Source: Clostridiales bacterium GWF2_38_85
Lineage (GTDB): Bacteria; Bacillota; Clostridia; Oscillospirales; CAG-382
Length of the DNA: 64,000 nt
Assembly: GCA_001797275.1 (NCBI GenBank)
Contig: MGOY01000014.1
Location: 62,001 to 126,000, forward strand
Reading direction: 5' to 3'
Part shown: one piece after another, positions 3,026 through 57,014 of the stretch
Numbering within the stretch: position 1 is the first letter of the stretch
How the letters are laid out: the number at the start of each line of letters is the position of its first letter
Notes under the pieces: model-generated
What the model was told of the DNA's origin: nothing
Databases searched by the model: none
The model's input: the letters and a program-made list of their open reading frames with translations, nothing else
Made by a program: the position numbers and the translations under genes

Positions 3026-3388
3026 ATGTATAAGGAAAGTATTTTAAGCGAAAAATCTTTGTATTTTGCAGCAAGCACAGTGAAGTTTTGTATTAAAGTT
3101 AATAAGGAAACTAACGAGAATATTATAACTAAACAATTGATACGCTTGTCAACAAGCATTGGAGCAAATATATGTGAAGTTAATTATGGTATTAGTAAAT
3201 CTGATTTTATATCAAAAATGCAAATTGCGATGAAGTAAGCTGTTGAAAGCGAATATTGGATGAAATTGTTATATAAGGCAGAATATGTTGCAGAAAATGA
3301 TGTAATTTATTTAATAAATGGTTGTAAAGAGATACAACAAATTTTAGTTTCTACATTAAAAACTGCAAAACAAAATAAAGAATTATAA
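3026..3388 (+). pseudogene. Four-helix bundle protein (23S rRNA IVS-type) broken by an in-frame stop
   Basis: The frame encodes 70 residues, meets TAA at 3236-3238, then stays open in the same frame to 3388. Together the two parts make a 120-residue product of normal length for the S23/IVS four-helix bundle family. Family-like features are LRLSTSIGANICE-type text before the stop (RLSTSIGANICEVNYGISKSDF) and AVESEYWMKLLYKAEYV after it. The stop sits where this family usually has Glu (MKEAxxE), so a single GAA-to-TAA change would explain it. The function of the family is unknown. A real nonsense mutation is most likely; a sequencing error cannot be excluded. Confidence 0.75.
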
Positions 3389-4567: not shown

Positions 4568-4672
4568 TATATTAAACTAACAAATGAATTGTGATTTTAT
4601 TAATTTAAAAAAAGCCAAAAAGCATAGGCTTTTTTCAAATTGCCAAAGTAATTCATTTATTAGTTTTATATA
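4568..4672. repeat. Family A inverted-repeat element, copy A1
   Basis: About 105 bp with termini TATTAAACTAACAAATGAATT and the complementary AATTCATTTATTAGTTTTATA. An inner hairpin AAAAAAGCC...GGCTTTTTT lies in the centre. It sits between convergent genes, just before a terminator. Confidence 0.8.
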
Positions 4673-5958: not shown

Positions 5959-6583
5959 GAATTTTAACCTCTGTGAAATTTTAATAATCCTTAAATAAAA
6001 TATAATTTTATTACATTTATATTTTATCATATGTCGAAATAAATTGCAAGGAGTTTTTATAAAAAAGAACCATTATGTATATAAATGTTAGGTTGAACAA
6101 AAAATAAAGGCAGTAATTATGCAATATGTATAAAATTCTGACCAATACATAAAACGTTGAACAAAACTATGTTCAGATTTCGCATTTACAAATTTTATTA
6201 TACTGACAAACGAGTCTTGATGAGGGAATCTTGTTTTTGTTATACATATAAAACTATAAATGAATTACCTCAGCAATTTGAAAATTGCCTATGCTCTTTA
6301 GCTTTTTTCAAATTAATAAAATCACAATTCATTTGTTAATTTAATATAGTATACTATAAATACATTTTATACAGCTATTGTAAAAAATGTGTGATAGAAT
6401 GATGACACCTTTGGATAATCTATTGCTTATTTTTTTCTTATATGGTAATATATAAGCAACTTGAAAAAGAAGAATTAAAATTCTTATGATAATTTCGTGA
6501 AAAGCTCTTCCAAACATTAAGAAGGAGAATTTTTCGTATAAAATTAAAGTGTTGTTTATTATATACGAAAAACATATATTAAA
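5959..6583. other. Intergenic stretch with a repeat A copy and an inverted repeat
   Basis: No credible gene. It holds repeat copy A2 (6247-6350), AT-rich sequence, and a 10-bp inverted repeat TTTTCGTATA/TATACGAAAA (6531-6540 with 6562-6571) directly before the M55 gene. That repeat could be an operator or leader hairpin. An orphan GAAGGAG at 6521-6527 has no start codon at useful spacing. Confidence 0.6.
6247..6350. repeat. Family A inverted-repeat element, copy A2
   Basis: About 104 bp; left end ATAAAACTATAAATGAATT, right end AATTCATTTGTTAATTTAATATA, with an interior containing GCAATTTG and TTTTTTCAAATTAATAAAATCAC. It is in the opposite orientation to copy A1. Confidence 0.8.
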
Positions 6584-14035: not shown

Positions 14036-14153
14036 ATAACTCACCTCGAATATATAATTATTTATTAGCTTTATATTATTATATGAGGTTTTAGGACGAA
14101 AAGTACACATACAATAGAATATATCTGTTTGTTTTATCATAATATGTATTGAA

Positions 14154-14262
14154 TATAATACTACTTCTCATAAGAAACAATAGAAAAAATTCAACGAAAA
14201 AGTCCGTAAATCAAGGACTTTTCCTCGAATTTTATCACCGTTTTTAAATCGAATGAGTATAA
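14154..14262. repeat. Family B inverted-repeat element, copy B1
   Basis: About 109 bp between the divergent csp operon and sleC-like gene. Termini are TATAATACTACTTCTCATAA and the complementary GAATGAGTATAAG, with inner GAAAAAGTCC...GGACTTTTCCTCGAATTTTATCACCG. It is followed by TTATTAATTTAATATAG, which resembles a family A right end. Confidence 0.75.
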
Positions 14263-14299
14263 GCCAGTTTATTAATTTAATATAGATTAGGAGCAGCAT

Positions 14300-18170: not shown

Positions 18171-18275
18171 TATATAAAACTAATAAGTGAATTATTACAG
18201 CAATTTGAAAAATGCCTATACTTTTTGGACTTTTTCAAATTAATAAAATCACAATTCATTTGTTAGTTTAATATA
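18171..18275. repeat. Family A inverted-repeat element, copy A3
   Basis: 105 bp; ends TATATAAAACTAATAAGTGAATT and AATTCATTTGTTAGTTTAATATA. It lies between pdxY-like and galK genes, both on the minus strand. Confidence 0.85.
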
Positions 18276-18281
18276 GAATCG

Positions 18282-21136: not shown

Positions 21137-21152
21137 CAATATTTTTATCAAC

Positions 21153-21259
21153 TTATACTAATTCGATTTAGAAGCAGTGATAAAATTCAAGGAAAAGTTT
21201 ATGATATAAGGACTTTTTCGCAGAATTTTATCTATTGTTTCTTATGAGAAATAGTTATA
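21153..21259. repeat. Family B inverted-repeat element, copy B2
   Basis: About 107 bp; left TTATACTAATTCGATTTAGA, right TTTCTTATGAGAAATAGTTATA, inner GTGATAAAATTC and AAAGT...ACTTTTT. It is in the opposite orientation to B1, B3 and B4. It lies in the clpC 3' untranslated region. Confidence 0.75.
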
Positions 21260-21274
21260 TCACATAAACACTAC

Positions 21275-23653: not shown

Positions 23654-23755
23654 ATATAAAACTAACATATGAATTTTCTAAGTCATTCGGGAAAAGATGA
23701 TGCTTTTCGATTTTTTCGAATGATAAAATTATGATTCATTTATTAGTTTTATATA
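23654..23755. repeat. Family A inverted-repeat element, copy A4
   Basis: About 102 bp; ends ATATAAAACTAACATATGAATT and GATTCATTTATTAGTTTTATATA. Inner GGGAAAAG...CTTTTCGATTTTTTCGAATG differs from A1-A3 but matches copy A8, suggesting two subtypes. It lies between divergent clpC and the CuAO-like gene. Confidence 0.8.
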
Positions 23756-23797
23756 GTATAGTTTATGAAATTATTTTTGAAAAGTTCAAATTATAGT

Positions 23798-33403: not shown

Positions 33404-34016
33404 GCCGGTATCGCTCCTCTCTGATTACTATAAGGAGTAAAGTTAAAATTTTTAATCAAAGAAAATAAAATTTTCCACACCAGTTTTGGGGTGTGGAAGC
33501 ATTACAAAAGTAATATGATTTTTAATTATTTCCTTCTATATATTTTAACACTTGAGATTGTCCCGAAAATGTGTTATGATGAATCATTACATGGCATCCT
33601 TTCTTTGCGAATCTTGATGTTATAAATTCAATCGGCTTGTTAACAACAGTATACAACTGATAGCATAATATGTCAAGATATTATTATCAACCAATGTAAA
33701 CTATAATATAACAAAGCTTTAGTTTAATATATATAATAATTTTTAACTTTGATGTATCAAAATTCTACATTGCAAGCATCATAAATATCAACTGGTATAT
33801 TGCAATTTCGAGTAAAAAATACTAAAATAACAAATGAATTAATATTTATTAATTCGAAAAAATCCAAAAAGTATAGGCTTTTTTCGACTTGCTGAGGTAA
33901 TTCATTTATTACTTTAATATAGTGTAGAATAAAAACATAAGAATTACATCAGAATTCAATCTGTCATCAGATTCTGATGCTTTTCATCCTTATGATGACG
34001 GAGATAGGAGCTTGTT
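33404..34016. other. Divergent intergenic region between the sigma factor and pflB
   Basis: No gene recognised. It contains the leader hairpin of the sigma gene (33473-33498), AT-rich sequence from 33530 to 33810, and repeat copy A5 (33819-33921). A direct repeat of ATTCTGATG-like text (TCAGAATTC / TCATCAGATTCTGATG around 33950-33980) precedes pflB. Confidence 0.5.
33819..33921. repeat. Family A inverted-repeat element, copy A5
   Basis: About 103 bp; left ACTAAAATAACAAATGAATT, right AATTCATTTATTACTTTAATATA, inner AAAAAATCCAAAAAGTATAGGCTTTTTTCG. It lies about 100 nt upstream of pflB. Confidence 0.8.
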
Positions 34017-39686: not shown

Positions 39687-39788
39687 TATTAAACAAACAA
39701 ATGGATATTGATTTGATCATTAGATAAAAACCCAAAAATCAAAGATTTTTTATTGAATGGCTGATGTAATTCATTTGTTTGTTTTAAT
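39687..39788. repeat. Family A inverted-repeat element, copy A6 (divergent)
   Basis: About 102 bp; left TATTAAACAAACAAATGGA, right AATTCATTTGTTTGTTTTAATCA, inner AAAAACCCAAAAATCAAAGATTTTTTATTG. It overlaps the stop codon of the DUF3267 gene by 5 nt. Confidence 0.7.
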
Positions 39789-42577: not shown

Positions 42578-43021
42578 TGTTCTCTCTATTTCATTTATAT
42601 GAAACTATCAAATGAATTACCTCAACAATTTTGAAAAAGCCGATACGGCATGGCTTTTTAAAATTAATAATATCACAATTCATTTGTTAGTTTAATATAG
42701 CCTCAGTGTGAATGTATATTATATTATATTATATTATATCAGCATTCAATTTACATTTCAATACAATTTAAATTTCTACCAGCCAAATTATTTTTACATA
42801 TAAACATAAAAGATATAATATATGATATTGATGGAATAGAAATATAAATTTGATATCTGTACAAGTACAGTATCCACAATAATATTATTTCTGCATATAA
42901 ATCCAATTATAAACAATTAAATGCATATGTCTATATTAAATCAATATGTATCTTGAATAATAAAATTATATGATGTATAATCTATACATGAGTATTTAAA
43001 TTCAAATCCTGGAGAAAAAAT
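42578..43021. other. Intergenic stretch with repeat A7 and a pentanucleotide array
   Basis: No gene seen. It contains repeat copy A7 (42596-42699), five perfect tandem TATAT units (42715-42739) and about 280 bp of AT-rich sequence that probably includes the promoter of the following dehydratase gene, without a clear -35. Confidence 0.5.
42596..42699. repeat. Family A inverted-repeat element, copy A7
   Basis: 104 bp; left TATATGAAACTATCAAATGAATT, right AATTCATTTGTTAGTTTAATATA, inner AAAAAGCCGATACGGCATGGCTTTTTAAAATTAATAATATCAC. Confidence 0.85.
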
Positions 43022-45734: not shown

Positions 45735-45839
45735 TATAATACTATTTCTATAAGAAACAGTAGAAAAACATCTTGAAAAAGTCCATACAGTAGACTTTTC
45801 CTCGAATTTTATCACTGTTTCTAAATAGAATTAGTATAA
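45735..45839. repeat. Family B inverted-repeat element, copy B3
   Basis: 105 bp; left TATAATACTATTTCTATAAG, right CTAAATAGAATTAGTATAA, shared inner AAACAGTAGAAAAA and ATTTTATCACTGTTT, and a core hairpin AAAAGTC...GACTTTT. Confidence 0.8.
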
Positions 45840-45872
45840 GAGAATATAGCTTTAGAATGTGAGGGAAATGCC

Positions 45873-46637
45873 ATGAATGATGACAAGAGATTTGCTGTGT
45901 TAATAGATGCAGATAATGTTTCGGATAAATATATCAAGCATATTCTCGACGAGATGACAAACTACGGACTTATCACCTACAAACGCATATATGGGGACTG
46001 GACAAAACCAGCGCTTGGAGCCTGGAAAACTGTGCTGCTCGATAATTCCATAACTCCGATTCAACAGTATGGTTATACAATCGGCAAGAATGCGACTGAT
46101 TCAGCTATGATAATTGATGCTATGGATATTTTATACAGCAAAAATGTCGAAGGCTTTTGTATTGTGTCCAGCGACAGCGATTTCACAAGACTTGCTTCAA
46201 GGCTTAGAGAATCAGGTATGTTTGTTGTCGGGATGGGCGAAAAGAAAACACCTTCAGCTTTCGTTGCAGCATGTAACCAATTTAAGTATCTCGAAATACT
46301 TGTTCAAAGTAATGAACCGGAAATTATCGCTACAGTTTCAACAGGAAGTACAAATAAAACAGATAATAAAGAATTGATAGATGAATCGATGACACCACTC
46401 AGCATTTTAATAAAAGCGATATCATCTATCATCAATGACACCTCCGATGATGACGGTTGGTGCCCGCTCAGCGATGTAGGGAATATATTAACAAAAAGGT
46501 TTCCAGATTTTGATGTCAGAAACTATGGTTATAACAAACTTACTCCGCTCGTACGCTCGCTGCATAACTATGAGATTAAATCAGAAAGAAAAAATAATCA
46601 ACGATTAATCTATATCAAGATAAACGAAAAAAAATAA
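45873..46637 (+). CDS. NYN-domain (LabA/PIN-like) protein with C-terminal OST-HTH/LOTUS-like domain
   Basis: A 254-residue cytosolic protein. The N-terminal NYN nuclease-like domain (1-145) shows RFAVLIDADNVS with conserved Asp residues, ATDSAMIIDAMDILY and FCIVSSDSDFTRLASRLRESGMFVVGMGEKKTP, the usual acidic catalytic set. The C-terminal ~75 residues (DGWCPLSDVGNILTKRFPDFDVRNYGYNKLTPLVRSL) match an OST-HTH/LOTUS RNA-binding fold. This NYN-LOTUS pairing is widespread and thought to act on RNA; targets are unknown. GAGGGAAA precedes the ATG. Confidence 0.88.
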   Translation: MNDDKRFAVLIDADNVSDKYIKHILDEMTNYGLITYKRIYGDWTKPALGAWKTVLLDNSITPIQQYGYTIGKNATDSAMIIDAMDILYSKNVEGFCIVSSDSDFTRLASRLRESGMFVVGMGEKKTPSAFVAACNQFKYLEILVQSNEPEIIATVSTGSTNKTDNKELIDESMTPLSILIKAISSIINDTSDDDGWCPLSDVGNILTKRFPDFDVRNYGYNKLTPLVRSLHNYEIKSERKNNQRLIYIKINEKK

Positions 46638-46716
46638 CTATAAATTATTATTGCAGAGTGACTTGAATATATAAAATATCTGAAAGTGTAGGATATGTTA
46701 ATCAATTATATTTTAG

Positions 46717-46821
46717 TATATGAAACTAACAAATGAATTTCTTAAGACATTCGAGAAAAACCAATGCTTTTCGGCTTTTTTTCGAATGATAAAATCTTGA
46801 TTCTTTTGTTAGTTTAATATA
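46717..46821. repeat. Family A inverted-repeat element, copy A8
   Basis: 105 bp; left TATATGAAACTAACAAATGAATT, right GATTCTTTTGTTAGTTTAATATA, inner GAGAAAAACCAATGCTTTTCGGCTTTTTTTCGAATG, the same subtype as A4. Confidence 0.85.
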
Positions 46822-46880
46822 GAAGCTTTGATAAGAATTTAAAAGCAACACCCTCCGATTATCGTAAAAAAATATGCTGA
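46822..46880 (+). pseudogene. C-terminal remnant of an AraC-family regulator
   Basis: Read in the frame ending at TGA 46880, the bases directly after repeat A8 encode SFDKNLKATPSDYRKKIC. This resembles the last helix and conserved tail of AraC/XylS regulators (F.K..G.SPS.YRKK). The rest of the gene is absent; the sequence upstream is the repeat. Its place before rhamnose gene remnants suggests a lost RhaS/RhaR-like activator. Only 18 residues support this. Confidence 0.45.
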
Positions 46881-46984
46881 AGCAACTAATCAGCAATTCA
46901 TATTGAATAGGCAATCGCAAAATATAGTTTTTAAGTCGTCAAGATGATAAGAAGGAACGCATAATACTGATTTTATATCCTCCA

Positions 46985-47013
46985 AAAGAGCAACAGAAGT
47001 TGTTCTTTTTTTT
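46985..47013 (+). terminator. Rho-independent terminator
   Basis: AAGAGCAAC pairs with GTTGTTCTT (loop AGAA), followed by a run of eight T. It probably once ended the AraC-like gene. Confidence 0.8.
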
Positions 47014-47022
47014 AAGGTAGTT

Positions 47023-47054
47023 ATGTTGACAACCAACATCAACAGATATATAAT
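47023..47054 (+). promoter_or_regulatory. Consensus promoter with palindromic operator before the rha remnant
   Basis: TTGACA 47026-47031, 17-nt spacer, TATAAT 47049-47054. The inverted repeat ATGTTG/CAACAT (47023-47028 with 47034-47039) overlaps the -35, as an operator would. Confidence 0.65.
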
Positions 47055-47186
47055 AAAATTAAAAATTAACTTAATGATACTTTTTCAATTGACAATTTTT
47101 GTTTTAAATGTAAAAGTTAAAACAAAAATTCGATTATAACGAACTGCTCAAAACCTCCGGCTCAGCAAAAAGGATGGAAAAAAATC

Positions 47187-47971
47187 ATGGAAAGTATGTT
47201 AAATAATGCGAAGCGGATATTGAGCTTTGACTTCGGAGCATCGAACGGAAGGGCAATTCTGTTCCGGCTCGAAAACGGCTGTTTACAGCAGCAGCAGGAG
47301 GAACACAGGTTCGAAAACAATCCGATTACAATCAATAATACTCTCTGCTGGGATATTGATAGCCTGACGAATAATCTGTTTACCGGCATACAAAAAGCTA
47401 TGCAGTCGGGTGGATTCGACGCAGTCGGCATCGACACCTGGGGCGTTGACTTTGCGCTAATCGGATTTAACGGTAAGCTTGTTGATTTACCTGTCCATTA
47501 CCGTGACAACCGTACGGAAGGCATCGAAAAAGAGGTATTCAAACGAATATCACCCGAAGAGCTGTATTCACGCTGCGGAACTCAATATAACTGCATAAAT
47601 ACATTGTATCAACTTGCATATCTTTCATATAACCAATCCGATATTATTAAAAGAACAGATAAAATACTTATGGTTGCAGATTATTTCGCATATCTGCTGA
47701 CAGGCGAGATGCGGCTTGAGCTGACAAATGTATCAACAACAAATCTACTTAACCCTGCGGTGTTGATGTTATTGCAGGTCCTGTTGAAGCCACAGCAATC
47801 GGGAATGCGGTTGTCTGTCTTATCGGAGCCGACGAAATAAAGGATTACGAACACGCAAAACATATAATACAAAACAGTATCGAAACAATAACATATTATC
47901 CAGAGAGCCGAGCCTATTGGGATTCGGAATATATACGTTTTAAAGAAATCAGAAAGGAAGTCGAAAAATGA
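47187..47971 (+). pseudogene. rhaB: Rhamnulokinase with a large internal deletion
   Basis: The N-terminal ~190 residues are rhamnulokinase (FGGY kinase): ILSFDFGASNGRAILFRLENG, GIDTWGVDFALI, YRDNRTEGIEKEV, STTNLLNP. At about 47756 the reading frame shifts directly into a C-terminal segment, CGVDVIAGPVEATAIGNAVVCLIG..., which runs in frame 2 to TGA 47969-47971. About 210 residues, including much of the ATPase domain, are missing compared with ~475-aa RhaB. The uninterrupted first frame runs on to 47840 as nonsense sequence. Catalytic function is surely lost. It still has a strong promoter and leads remnants of rhaA and rhaD. Confidence 0.88.
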
Positions 47972-48081
47972 ACACAGAGAAAGCATACCTGATTGCAAAA
48001 GAAATGTATTCTGAAATCGGTGTCGATACCGATGCAGTGATGAAAAAACTCGAAAACATAAAAATATCCCCGCAATGCTGA
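47968..48081 (+). pseudogene. rhaA: L-rhamnose isomerase N-terminal fragment
   Basis: The ATG at 47968 overlaps the rhaB stop (ATGA) as in an intact operon. The 37-residue frame MNTEKAYLIAKEMYSEIGVDTDAVMKKLENI...ISPQC matches the start of RhaA (AKE.YA..GVD.D.AL..L..IPIS.HCW). It ends at TGA where it runs into a fragment of another gene in a different frame. More than 370 residues are missing. Confidence 0.75.
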
Positions 48082-48304
48082 GCTACTTCAGGACAGAAGA
48101 CTTGTGGTATGGGCACATCATGGTATATTTGGAACAGGGAATAATTTTGACGAAGCCTTCGGTCTTATGGAGGCGGTCGAAATAGCAGCTGAAATATATA
48201 TGAAAATAAATAAATCAGCCATAACTCCCGGTATTACGAATACCCAGCTCAGAGAGCTGGCAAATGCATTCAACATCACCCCAAGACGAGGGTATCTTGA
48301 TTAA
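48077..48304 (+). pseudogene. rhaD: Rhamnulose-1-phosphate aldolase C-terminal fragment
   Basis: Frame 2 from about 48077 encodes AELLQDRRLVVWAHHGIFGTG.NFDEAFGLMEAVEIAAEIYMKI and ends ...FNITPRRGYLD. This is the class II aldolase RhaD tail, including the His of HHG (a zinc ligand region in RhaD) and the DEAFGL motif. About 200 N-terminal residues are gone. It joins the rhaA fragment directly, so one deletion of roughly 1.7 kb removed the rhaA 3' part and the rhaD 5' part (size estimated from family lengths). Confidence 0.8.
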
Positions 48305-48357
48305 TAAAAAAATCAGACAAGTTATCACTAACTTGATATATCTATTTTCTATACAAT

Positions 48358-48394
48358 AAAAAGAACACAGGGATTATACTCTGTGTTCTTTACT
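48358..48394. terminator. Bidirectional terminator between the rha remnant and the lipid kinase gene
   Basis: AAAGAACACAG (48360-48370) pairs with CTGTGTTCTTT (48381-48391), with A/T tracts on both sides. Confidence 0.85.
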
Positions 48395-48405
48395 ATTATT
48401 TTTAA

Positions 48406-49350
48406 TTATGCTTTTACCGCAATCGGTTTAGGTACAATGATCCTCATTGATTTCGGCAGCAGTGATATTTCCGGATTGGTCATCTTGTAAATTTCACCGT
48501 CAACATTTACATTGATCGGCTTTTCAGCAAGGATTTTCAACTTTCGACATCTTAAAAACTCAACTATTTTTAACTTTTCAAGATGTTCACCGCGTTTGAA
48601 TATCTGTACCAGATTTATGATTTTTGATATAGGAACTGATGGAATTCTAATAAAGTCGAGCAGTCCATCACTCAGTTCTGCGATAGGAGCTGCTTTAAAG
48701 CCGCCGCCGTACCATCTGCCATTTGCTGCAATTACGAGAAGGTAATCACGGTTAACAGCATCAATTGGGTTACCGTCGACCTCAAAAATGAATCTGTGCT
48801 TAAGCGAGGTGAACAGGTTTTGAATCAAGGAAAGGTTGTATGCCATACTACCGCTGACAAAAGGCAGCTTTTTATATTTCTTCATTCCGTTTGCGATAGC
48901 TGCATCAAAGCCGACAGAAACAATATTAATGCTCGCTTTTGTTTCAATAATTTTATCATTGACAGTAAGCAGGTCAATCGCATCGATATCACCGTCAATC
49001 ATACGGTCGAGGGAGAGAAAATCAGCTTTTACAAGCGGTTCATATGCTTTTACAAAATCGTTTCCTGAACCAATCGGTATTGCACCAACTGCACAGTTTA
49101 GGTGCTTGTACGCACCTGTAACAACCTCACTGAGCGTACCGTCACCGCCGCAGGCATAAATTCTAAGCTGGCTGGTACCCATCTTATCACCCCAGCTGTC
49201 AGCGATTTCGGTTGCTTCAAATGGACGTGTTGTTGAAACAATATCATAATTGTCGGTCCGATTTATAAAGCATTCCTTTATTTTTGCGGTTAATTCTTTT
49301 GTTTTGTCAACTTTACCTGCTGTAGGGTTGATAATAAAAAGATGATGCAC
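48406..49350 (-). CDS. Diacylglycerol/lipid kinase family protein (DgkB/YegS-like)
   Basis: A 314-aa cytosolic lipid kinase. The N-terminal NAD-kinase-like fold has LFIINPTAGK and YACGGDGTLSEVVTGAY (GGDGT phosphate loop), then VGAIPIGSGNDFVKAY; the C-terminal beta domain contains RWYGGGFKAAPIAELSDGLLDFI. A GTG start at 49350 is used (AGG 8 nt upstream; no ATG fits). In Firmicutes DgkB recycles diacylglycerol from lipoteichoic acid synthesis; whether this protein does so is inferred. Confidence 0.88.
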   Translation of the reverse strand: MHHLFIINPTAGKVDKTKELTAKIKECFINRTDNYDIVSTTRPFEATEIADSWGDKMGTSQLRIYACGGDGTLSEVVTGAYKHLNCAVGAIPIGSGNDFVKAYEPLVKADFLSLDRMIDGDIDAIDLLTVNDKIIETKASINIVSVGFDAAIANGMKKYKKLPFVSGSMAYNLSLIQNLFTSLKHRFIFEVDGNPIDAVNRDYLLVIAANGRWYGGGFKAAPIAELSDGLLDFIRIPSVPISKIINLVQIFKRGEHLEKLKIVEFLRCRKLKILAEKPINVNVDGEIYKMTNPEISLLPKSMRIIVPKPIAVKA

Positions 49351-49671
49351 ATTTAATACCTGTACGATTGAAATGTCAATTTTAATCGTTATATCCCTTC
49401 CGTATTAATAAACTTCCCAAATCTCTTATATTCATTATATATTAACAATCGGCAGAAATCAATACATCAAAACACATTTCGCTTGACAATTTAGAACTGT
49501 GATGGTATCATATGATATAATAAGTTTCAGCAGACCTACAGAAAATGCGAAGCATTTTCACAAATGCCAACTGAACAGACGAAAAGACACTATCAGACCT
49601 AGTGTTGGCATTATTGTATAATTAAAACAATGAATTAATTTACAGCATTAGAAATTAAGGAGAATTCCGGA
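49351..49671. other. Promoter and structured 5' region of the PsbP-like lipoprotein gene
   Basis: Promoter TTGACA 49483-49488, 17 nt, TATCAT 49506-49511. The leader then holds a hairpin GAAAATGC/GCATTTTC (49541-49548 with 49552-49559), a 9-bp long-range pair AATGCCAAC/GTTGGCATT (49563-49571 with 49604-49612) and an 8-bp direct repeat CAGACCTA (49531 and 49594). I match it to no known riboswitch. Confidence 0.5.
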
Positions 49672-56908: not shown

Positions 56909-57014
56909 GTAATACTATTTCTATAAGAAACAGTAGAAAAATTTCTTGAAAAAACCCATATAGTAAAGACTTTTCCTCAAATTTTATCACTGTTTCTAAA
57001 TAGAATTAATATAA
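56909..57014. repeat. Family B inverted-repeat element, copy B4
   Basis: 106 bp; left GTAATACTATTTCTATAAG, right CTAAATAGAATTAATATAA. It is nearly identical to B3 apart from the central loop. Confidence 0.8.

Follow-up and report, generated by a model that had tools for sequence, protein, structure and literature searches.

A stretch of 64,000 nucleotides (hereafter the window) carries, at positions 47187-48304, a locus of 1118 bp that is very probably (about 0.9) a pseudo-operon, left when deletions cut down a normal rhaB-rhaA-rhaD operon. The window lies within contig C14 (337,230 bases) of a draft genome (G000) of 2.83 Mb in 47 contigs that is 96% complete. Reading of the locus in three frames identified parts of rhaB, rhaA and rhaD in order, on one strand and with the normal rhaB-rhaA spacing, and no complete frame for a rhamnulokinase, an isomerase or an aldolase (Table 1). 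Intact genes are present in relatives, and a second copy was not found in the 96%-complete draft. The remnant shares gene order, gene ends, strand and family matches with the intact rhaBAD operon for L-rhamnose catabolism of a congener (G001), but is without about 2.4 kb of its 3.5 kb, and complete enzymes cannot be read from it. The finding is one of ordinary gene loss, with a pathway caught part-way.

Table 1. Coordinates of the rha remnant, its putative signals and the first repeat family, in window positions
Feature	Position	Strand	Remarks
Perfect sigma-70 consensus (TTGACA, 17 nt, TATAAT)	47026..47054	+	12/12 matches; upstream of remnant
Inverted repeat	47094..47130	+	two 14-nt fully complementary arms, 9 nt spacing; one of 25 inverted pairs
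rhaB (rhamnulokinase) N-terminal part	47187..47755	+	~190 codons from ATG 47187; TIGR02627 match
Deletion junction 1, within rhaB	47754..47758	+	frame changed; codon comparison with G001
rhaB C-terminal part	47756..47971	+	71 codons + stop; from TGC 47756, frame differs from N-terminal part
rhaA (L-rhamnose isomerase) 5' piece	47968..48078	+	first 37 codons; PRK01076, Pfam RhaA
Deletion junction 2, rhaA' to 'rhaD	48076..48081	+	codon comparison with G001
rhaD (rhamnulose-1-phosphate aldolase) 3' piece	48077..48304	+	last 75 codons; stop 48302-48304
Terminator-like hairpin	48360..48391	+	13 pairs; after remnant, before convergent gene 48406-49350
Repeat family 1 copies	4568-4672, 6246-6349, 18171-18278, 23654-23756, 33819-33921, 39687-39784, 42596-42700, 46717-46822		

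Gene pieces and the intact operon of a congener

Beyond the first joint, the N-terminal rhaB frame reads on in the wrong register until the stop codon at 47838-47840, giving a frame of 217 aa open from 47187. The stop of rhaB (TGA, 47969-47971) overlaps the start of rhaA (ATG, 47968-47970), and the rhaA frame runs into a TGA at 48079-48081, that is, at the second joint. Each of the four pieces matches the expected end of its curated NCBIfam family. The N-terminal part of RhaB aligns with positions 3-182 of 454 in TIGR02627 (E 3.4e-54) and the C-terminal part with positions 411-453 of the same profile (E 8.3e-10) and 417-484 of 489 in PRK10640 (E 2.9e-10); the RhaA piece matches PRK01076 at 4-39 of 419 (E 8.1e-7; profile positions 2-36 of 414 in the genome-wide search), and the RhaD piece TIGR02624 at 196-270 of 270 (E 3.9e-20). 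Because the pieces are fragments, none is at the NCBIfam whole-protein cut-offs. The Pfam cut-offs were passed by the RhaB N-terminal part, the RhaA piece (22.3 bits, cut-off 22, over Pfam RhaA positions 1-37) and the RhaD piece, and the Pfam scan of the RhaB C-terminal part gave no match. Taken together, the E-values, the order of the genes and the intact counterpart in the congener exclude a chance origin of the pieces.

The comparison at genus level comprises two genomes, the present one and that of G001 (~2.6 Mb), in which rhaB, rhaA and rhaD are all intact and follow one another as in the remnant (C28:62536-65996; operon span 3482 bp), adjoined by an alpha-L-rhamnosidase gene. A comparison with intact relatives had been proposed in the first-pass annotation, and the whole operon of G001 supports the two internal deletions and the preserved rhaB-rhaA-rhaD order described there. 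Both reading frames and the TIGR02627 matches likewise agree with its description of rhaB ends joined in different frames at about 47756, as do the family matches with that of the first 37 codons of rhaA, in operon overlap, fused to the last ~75 codons of rhaD; by codon comparison with G001, its junction coordinates of 47756 and 48077 are correct within a few bases. Identity to the G001 proteins is 51.6% for the RhaB N-terminal part, 38.8% for the RhaB C-terminal part and 56.8% for each of the RhaA and RhaD pieces. Better relatives than G001 exist for two of these, reaching up to 58% for the RhaB C-terminal part and 64.5% over 31 residues for the RhaA piece. At the first junction 236 codons (708 bp) of G001 rhaB are without counterpart, and at the second 1724 bp, which extend from codon 38 of rhaA to codon 193 of rhaD. 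Synteny with G001 is uninformative, because matches to the neighbours of the remnant are scattered over several other contigs and one of them, to diacylglycerol kinase, is on a contig of 3,887 bases.

Regarding regulatory signals, 9 promoter-like sites were counted in positions 46600-48450, against 7.3 expected from shuffles (sd 2.4), and 2 terminator-like sites against 1.2 expected. As these counts are near chance (the other eight promoter-like sites score 9 or 10), only the quality of the promoter at 47026-47054 is remarkable, and it is probably the old rha promoter. The inverted repeat between this promoter and rhaB is a possible operator or leader hairpin, and the terminator-like hairpin, which sits between the remnant and the convergent gene, may serve either. 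The gene upstream (45873-46637) encodes an NYN domain and an OST-HTH/LOTUS domain.

Deletion junctions and age of the inactivation

The junctions were analysed with G001, a distant relative, as the only reference. At junction 1 the left reading holds as far as a proline codon (CCT, 47754-47756), the right one from a cysteine codon (TGC, 47756-47758) onward; outside those codons each frame loses its likeness to G001, so that the sides can share from 0 to about 5 bases. At junction 2 the left side is read as TGC-TG(G), from the tryptophan that follows cysteine in G001 and has a single codon, and the right side as GCT-GAG. Given an ancestral GCT codon for alanine (GCG in G001), the bases GCTG at 48077-48080 would fit either side. 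Any flanking repeats would escape a repeat search of the sequence as it now stands, because a deletion leaves one copy. As judged against G001 alone, the sides of each junction can share only a few bases, which suits ordinary illegitimate recombination. One deletion would have taken out the central part of rhaB, with a change of frame, and another all of rhaA beyond codon 37 together with rhaD except for its last 75 codons. For both, the probable mechanism is ordinary illegitimate recombination or replication slippage at few shared bases. Within the pseudo-operon reading, it is possible but rather unlikely that one complex event, for example template switching in replication, produced both junctions. 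The distance between these is just ~320 bp, and no further stop or frame lesion is present in the remnant segments, as a single event would have it; two separate deletions, on the other hand, need no special cause, since the second would be neutral once the operon was dead.

No internal stop is found in the 372 codons of the four pieces, and the inactivation therefore looks recent. With transitions weighted 2:1, 3.9% of random substitutions create stops, and at a neutral divergence of 0.069 per site (~7%) the chance of zero stops in 372 codons would be only 5%, an age estimate that assumes neutrality since these deletions and leaves indels uncounted.

Conservation was assessed against relatives retrieved with phmmer (E <=1e-30 versus G001) and having frames of 430-560 (RhaB), 380-470 (RhaA) and 230-420 aa (RhaD), length limits that left out shorter, longer or cut genes. 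In alignments of 37, 31 and 16 rows, respectively, where a gene fetched as two loci may appear twice, the invariant columns retained are 23 of 23 in the RhaB pieces, 4 of 4 in RhaA and 6 of 7 in RhaD; among further columns with at least 90% conservation the figures are 21/30, 1/3 and 5/6. In a leave-one-out test for relaxed constraint, with doubles removed (27, 30 and 15 relatives) and ranks counted from the most conserved, the remnant came 27th of 28 in RhaB, 31st of 31 in RhaA (7 columns only) and 13th of 16 in RhaD. Only one RhaB ranks below it, the intact gene of G001, which departs at 12 of 57 conserved columns against 9 of 54 in the remnant, so a low rank is no proof of decay.

Other copies, retained function and rhamnose use

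In a genome-wide profile search of the draft, RhaA and RhaD each gave a single match, which in either case was the piece in the remnant. The RhaB family was represented by the two pieces of the remnant and by two weakly matching stretches (E 2.9e-9 and 6.0e-5) of one 496-aa frame on contig C46; no full rhamnulokinase was found in the draft. An intact copy could sit in the missing part of this assembly of 47 contigs and 96% completeness. Two alternative families of rhamnose enzymes were searched. The Gram-positive isomerase family RhaI had no match in this genome, and its single match in G001 was weak and fell on the rhaA gene itself. The fused aldolase-dehydrogenase family had eight matches, all confined to positions 403-673 of its 676-position profile, taken here to be the dehydrogenase half; as only these positions were matched and all 14 of 14 control genomes match as well, the matches are uninformative on rhamnose and the family was rejected as a replacement. 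RhaM (PF05336) was found in neither G000 nor G001, and its absence from the former is thus uninformative, the latter bearing the operon.

Both deletions are probably present in the cell itself. An operon intact in the cell, of which the assembler skipped two stretches, is conceivable in a draft of 47 contigs whose congener has the operon whole, but very unlikely: the missing middles were sought by profile search elsewhere in the assembly and not found, the locus is well inside a contig of 337 kb, and the coding readings flanking each joint allow only a few shared bases. Assembler collapses normally require long repeats. The deletions may also be a minority-strain variant. Hardly credible is the retention of the remnant for a function of its own, be it through a truncated N-terminal RhaB protein or through RNA made from the strong promoter. 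The persisting perfect-consensus promoter and terminator-like hairpin, the open 217-aa frame and the remnants free of stops might be cited for it, but the 217-aa product would be without the second half of the kinase and end in an out-of-frame tail, the open frames are just as well accounted for by recent inactivation, and the family search showed the remnant in one of 63 genomes, namely its own.

Under the pseudo-operon reading, with no complete kinase, isomerase or aldolase at the remnant, the organism is most likely without the classical RhaB-RhaA-RhaD route, and the predicted phenotype is loss of rhamnose use by this route. An alpha-L-rhamnosidase frame of 757 aa is still open in the genome (C22:6088-8361). 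It might be speculated, with considerable doubt, that the organism cuts rhamnose off glycans and leaves the sugar to its neighbours, as a new cross-feeding donor whose pathway was just lost.

Distribution among relatives and genome context

Matches to RhaA were found in 26 of 63 genomes of the family, of which 24 are full length, one (G016) is cut at the end of a contig of 30,726 bases and one is the present remnant; the remaining 37 had no match. Across the order, 33 of 60 genomes, including this one, have a RhaA match. Such patchy presence is as expected of an optional sugar pathway. Other short remnants in the family may have been missed, because the present one was itself at the edge of the search (E 9.5e-4, limit 1e-3). 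A DNA search with the remnant matched 11 of 60 genomes, its own included, and the others over short pieces only. A member of the order (G057, C15:4515-6810) has rhaB followed directly by rhaD, and a RhaA match is absent from that genome; it was rejected as a remnant of the same type, its rhaB and rhaD frames being long and open.

Three broader statements of the first-pass annotation are not supported, the first being that the two deletions are independent. The retention of gene ends with loss of the middles had been called unusual, but any deletion inside an operon leaves the outer ends. An "ongoing reductive loss" beyond the rha operon is not supported by the present data: the genome, at 2.83 Mb, is larger than the ~2.6 Mb of G001, and the evidence on genome-wide reduction otherwise consists of one window, with one other broken gene noticed and with ORFs of at least 90 aa covering ~86% of its length, a mechanical figure in which the rha pseudogene is counted. 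Further remnants in the window were looked for in segments from ten gaps, of which two (from one gene) were scanned against Pfam, along with three neighbouring genes. A 23S_rRNA_IVP (PF05635) gene at 3026-3385 is interrupted by one in-frame TAA (3236-3238).

The window also contains several repeats. A first near-palindromic family of ~105 bp, MITE-like by its size and symmetry, has 8 copies in the window (Table 1) and is present in at least 40 places in the genome, query included (40 of 114 first-look candidates were scored); none was found in G001 and nine other relatives at E 0.001. A second near-palindromic family of ~105 bp (14153-14263, 21152-21260, 45737-45840 and 56910-57014) is 82-92% alike within the window and is present on other contigs of the genome too. 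A third type of ~120 bp (49512-49633) recurs with 94-95% identity at two places in the same genome, one on C14 and the other on C8.

No published work on this rha locus was found by title in a literature search. In Yersinia pestis CO92, glpK and glpX are disrupted by large deletions and presumed to be pseudogenes, and the rhamnose-negative phenotype is possibly due to a point mutation in RhaS or to a missing lactaldehyde sink (PMC3220653). Loss of sugar use in that strain resembles the remnant in that catabolic genes are damaged, and differs from it in that the sections of the paper drawn on here do not ascribe the loss of rhamnose use to deletions in rhaBAD (PMC3220653). The remnant described here illustrates how a sugar pathway can be lost through a few kilobase-scale deletions with the promoter left standing, and is a useful but minor snapshot of pathway loss.
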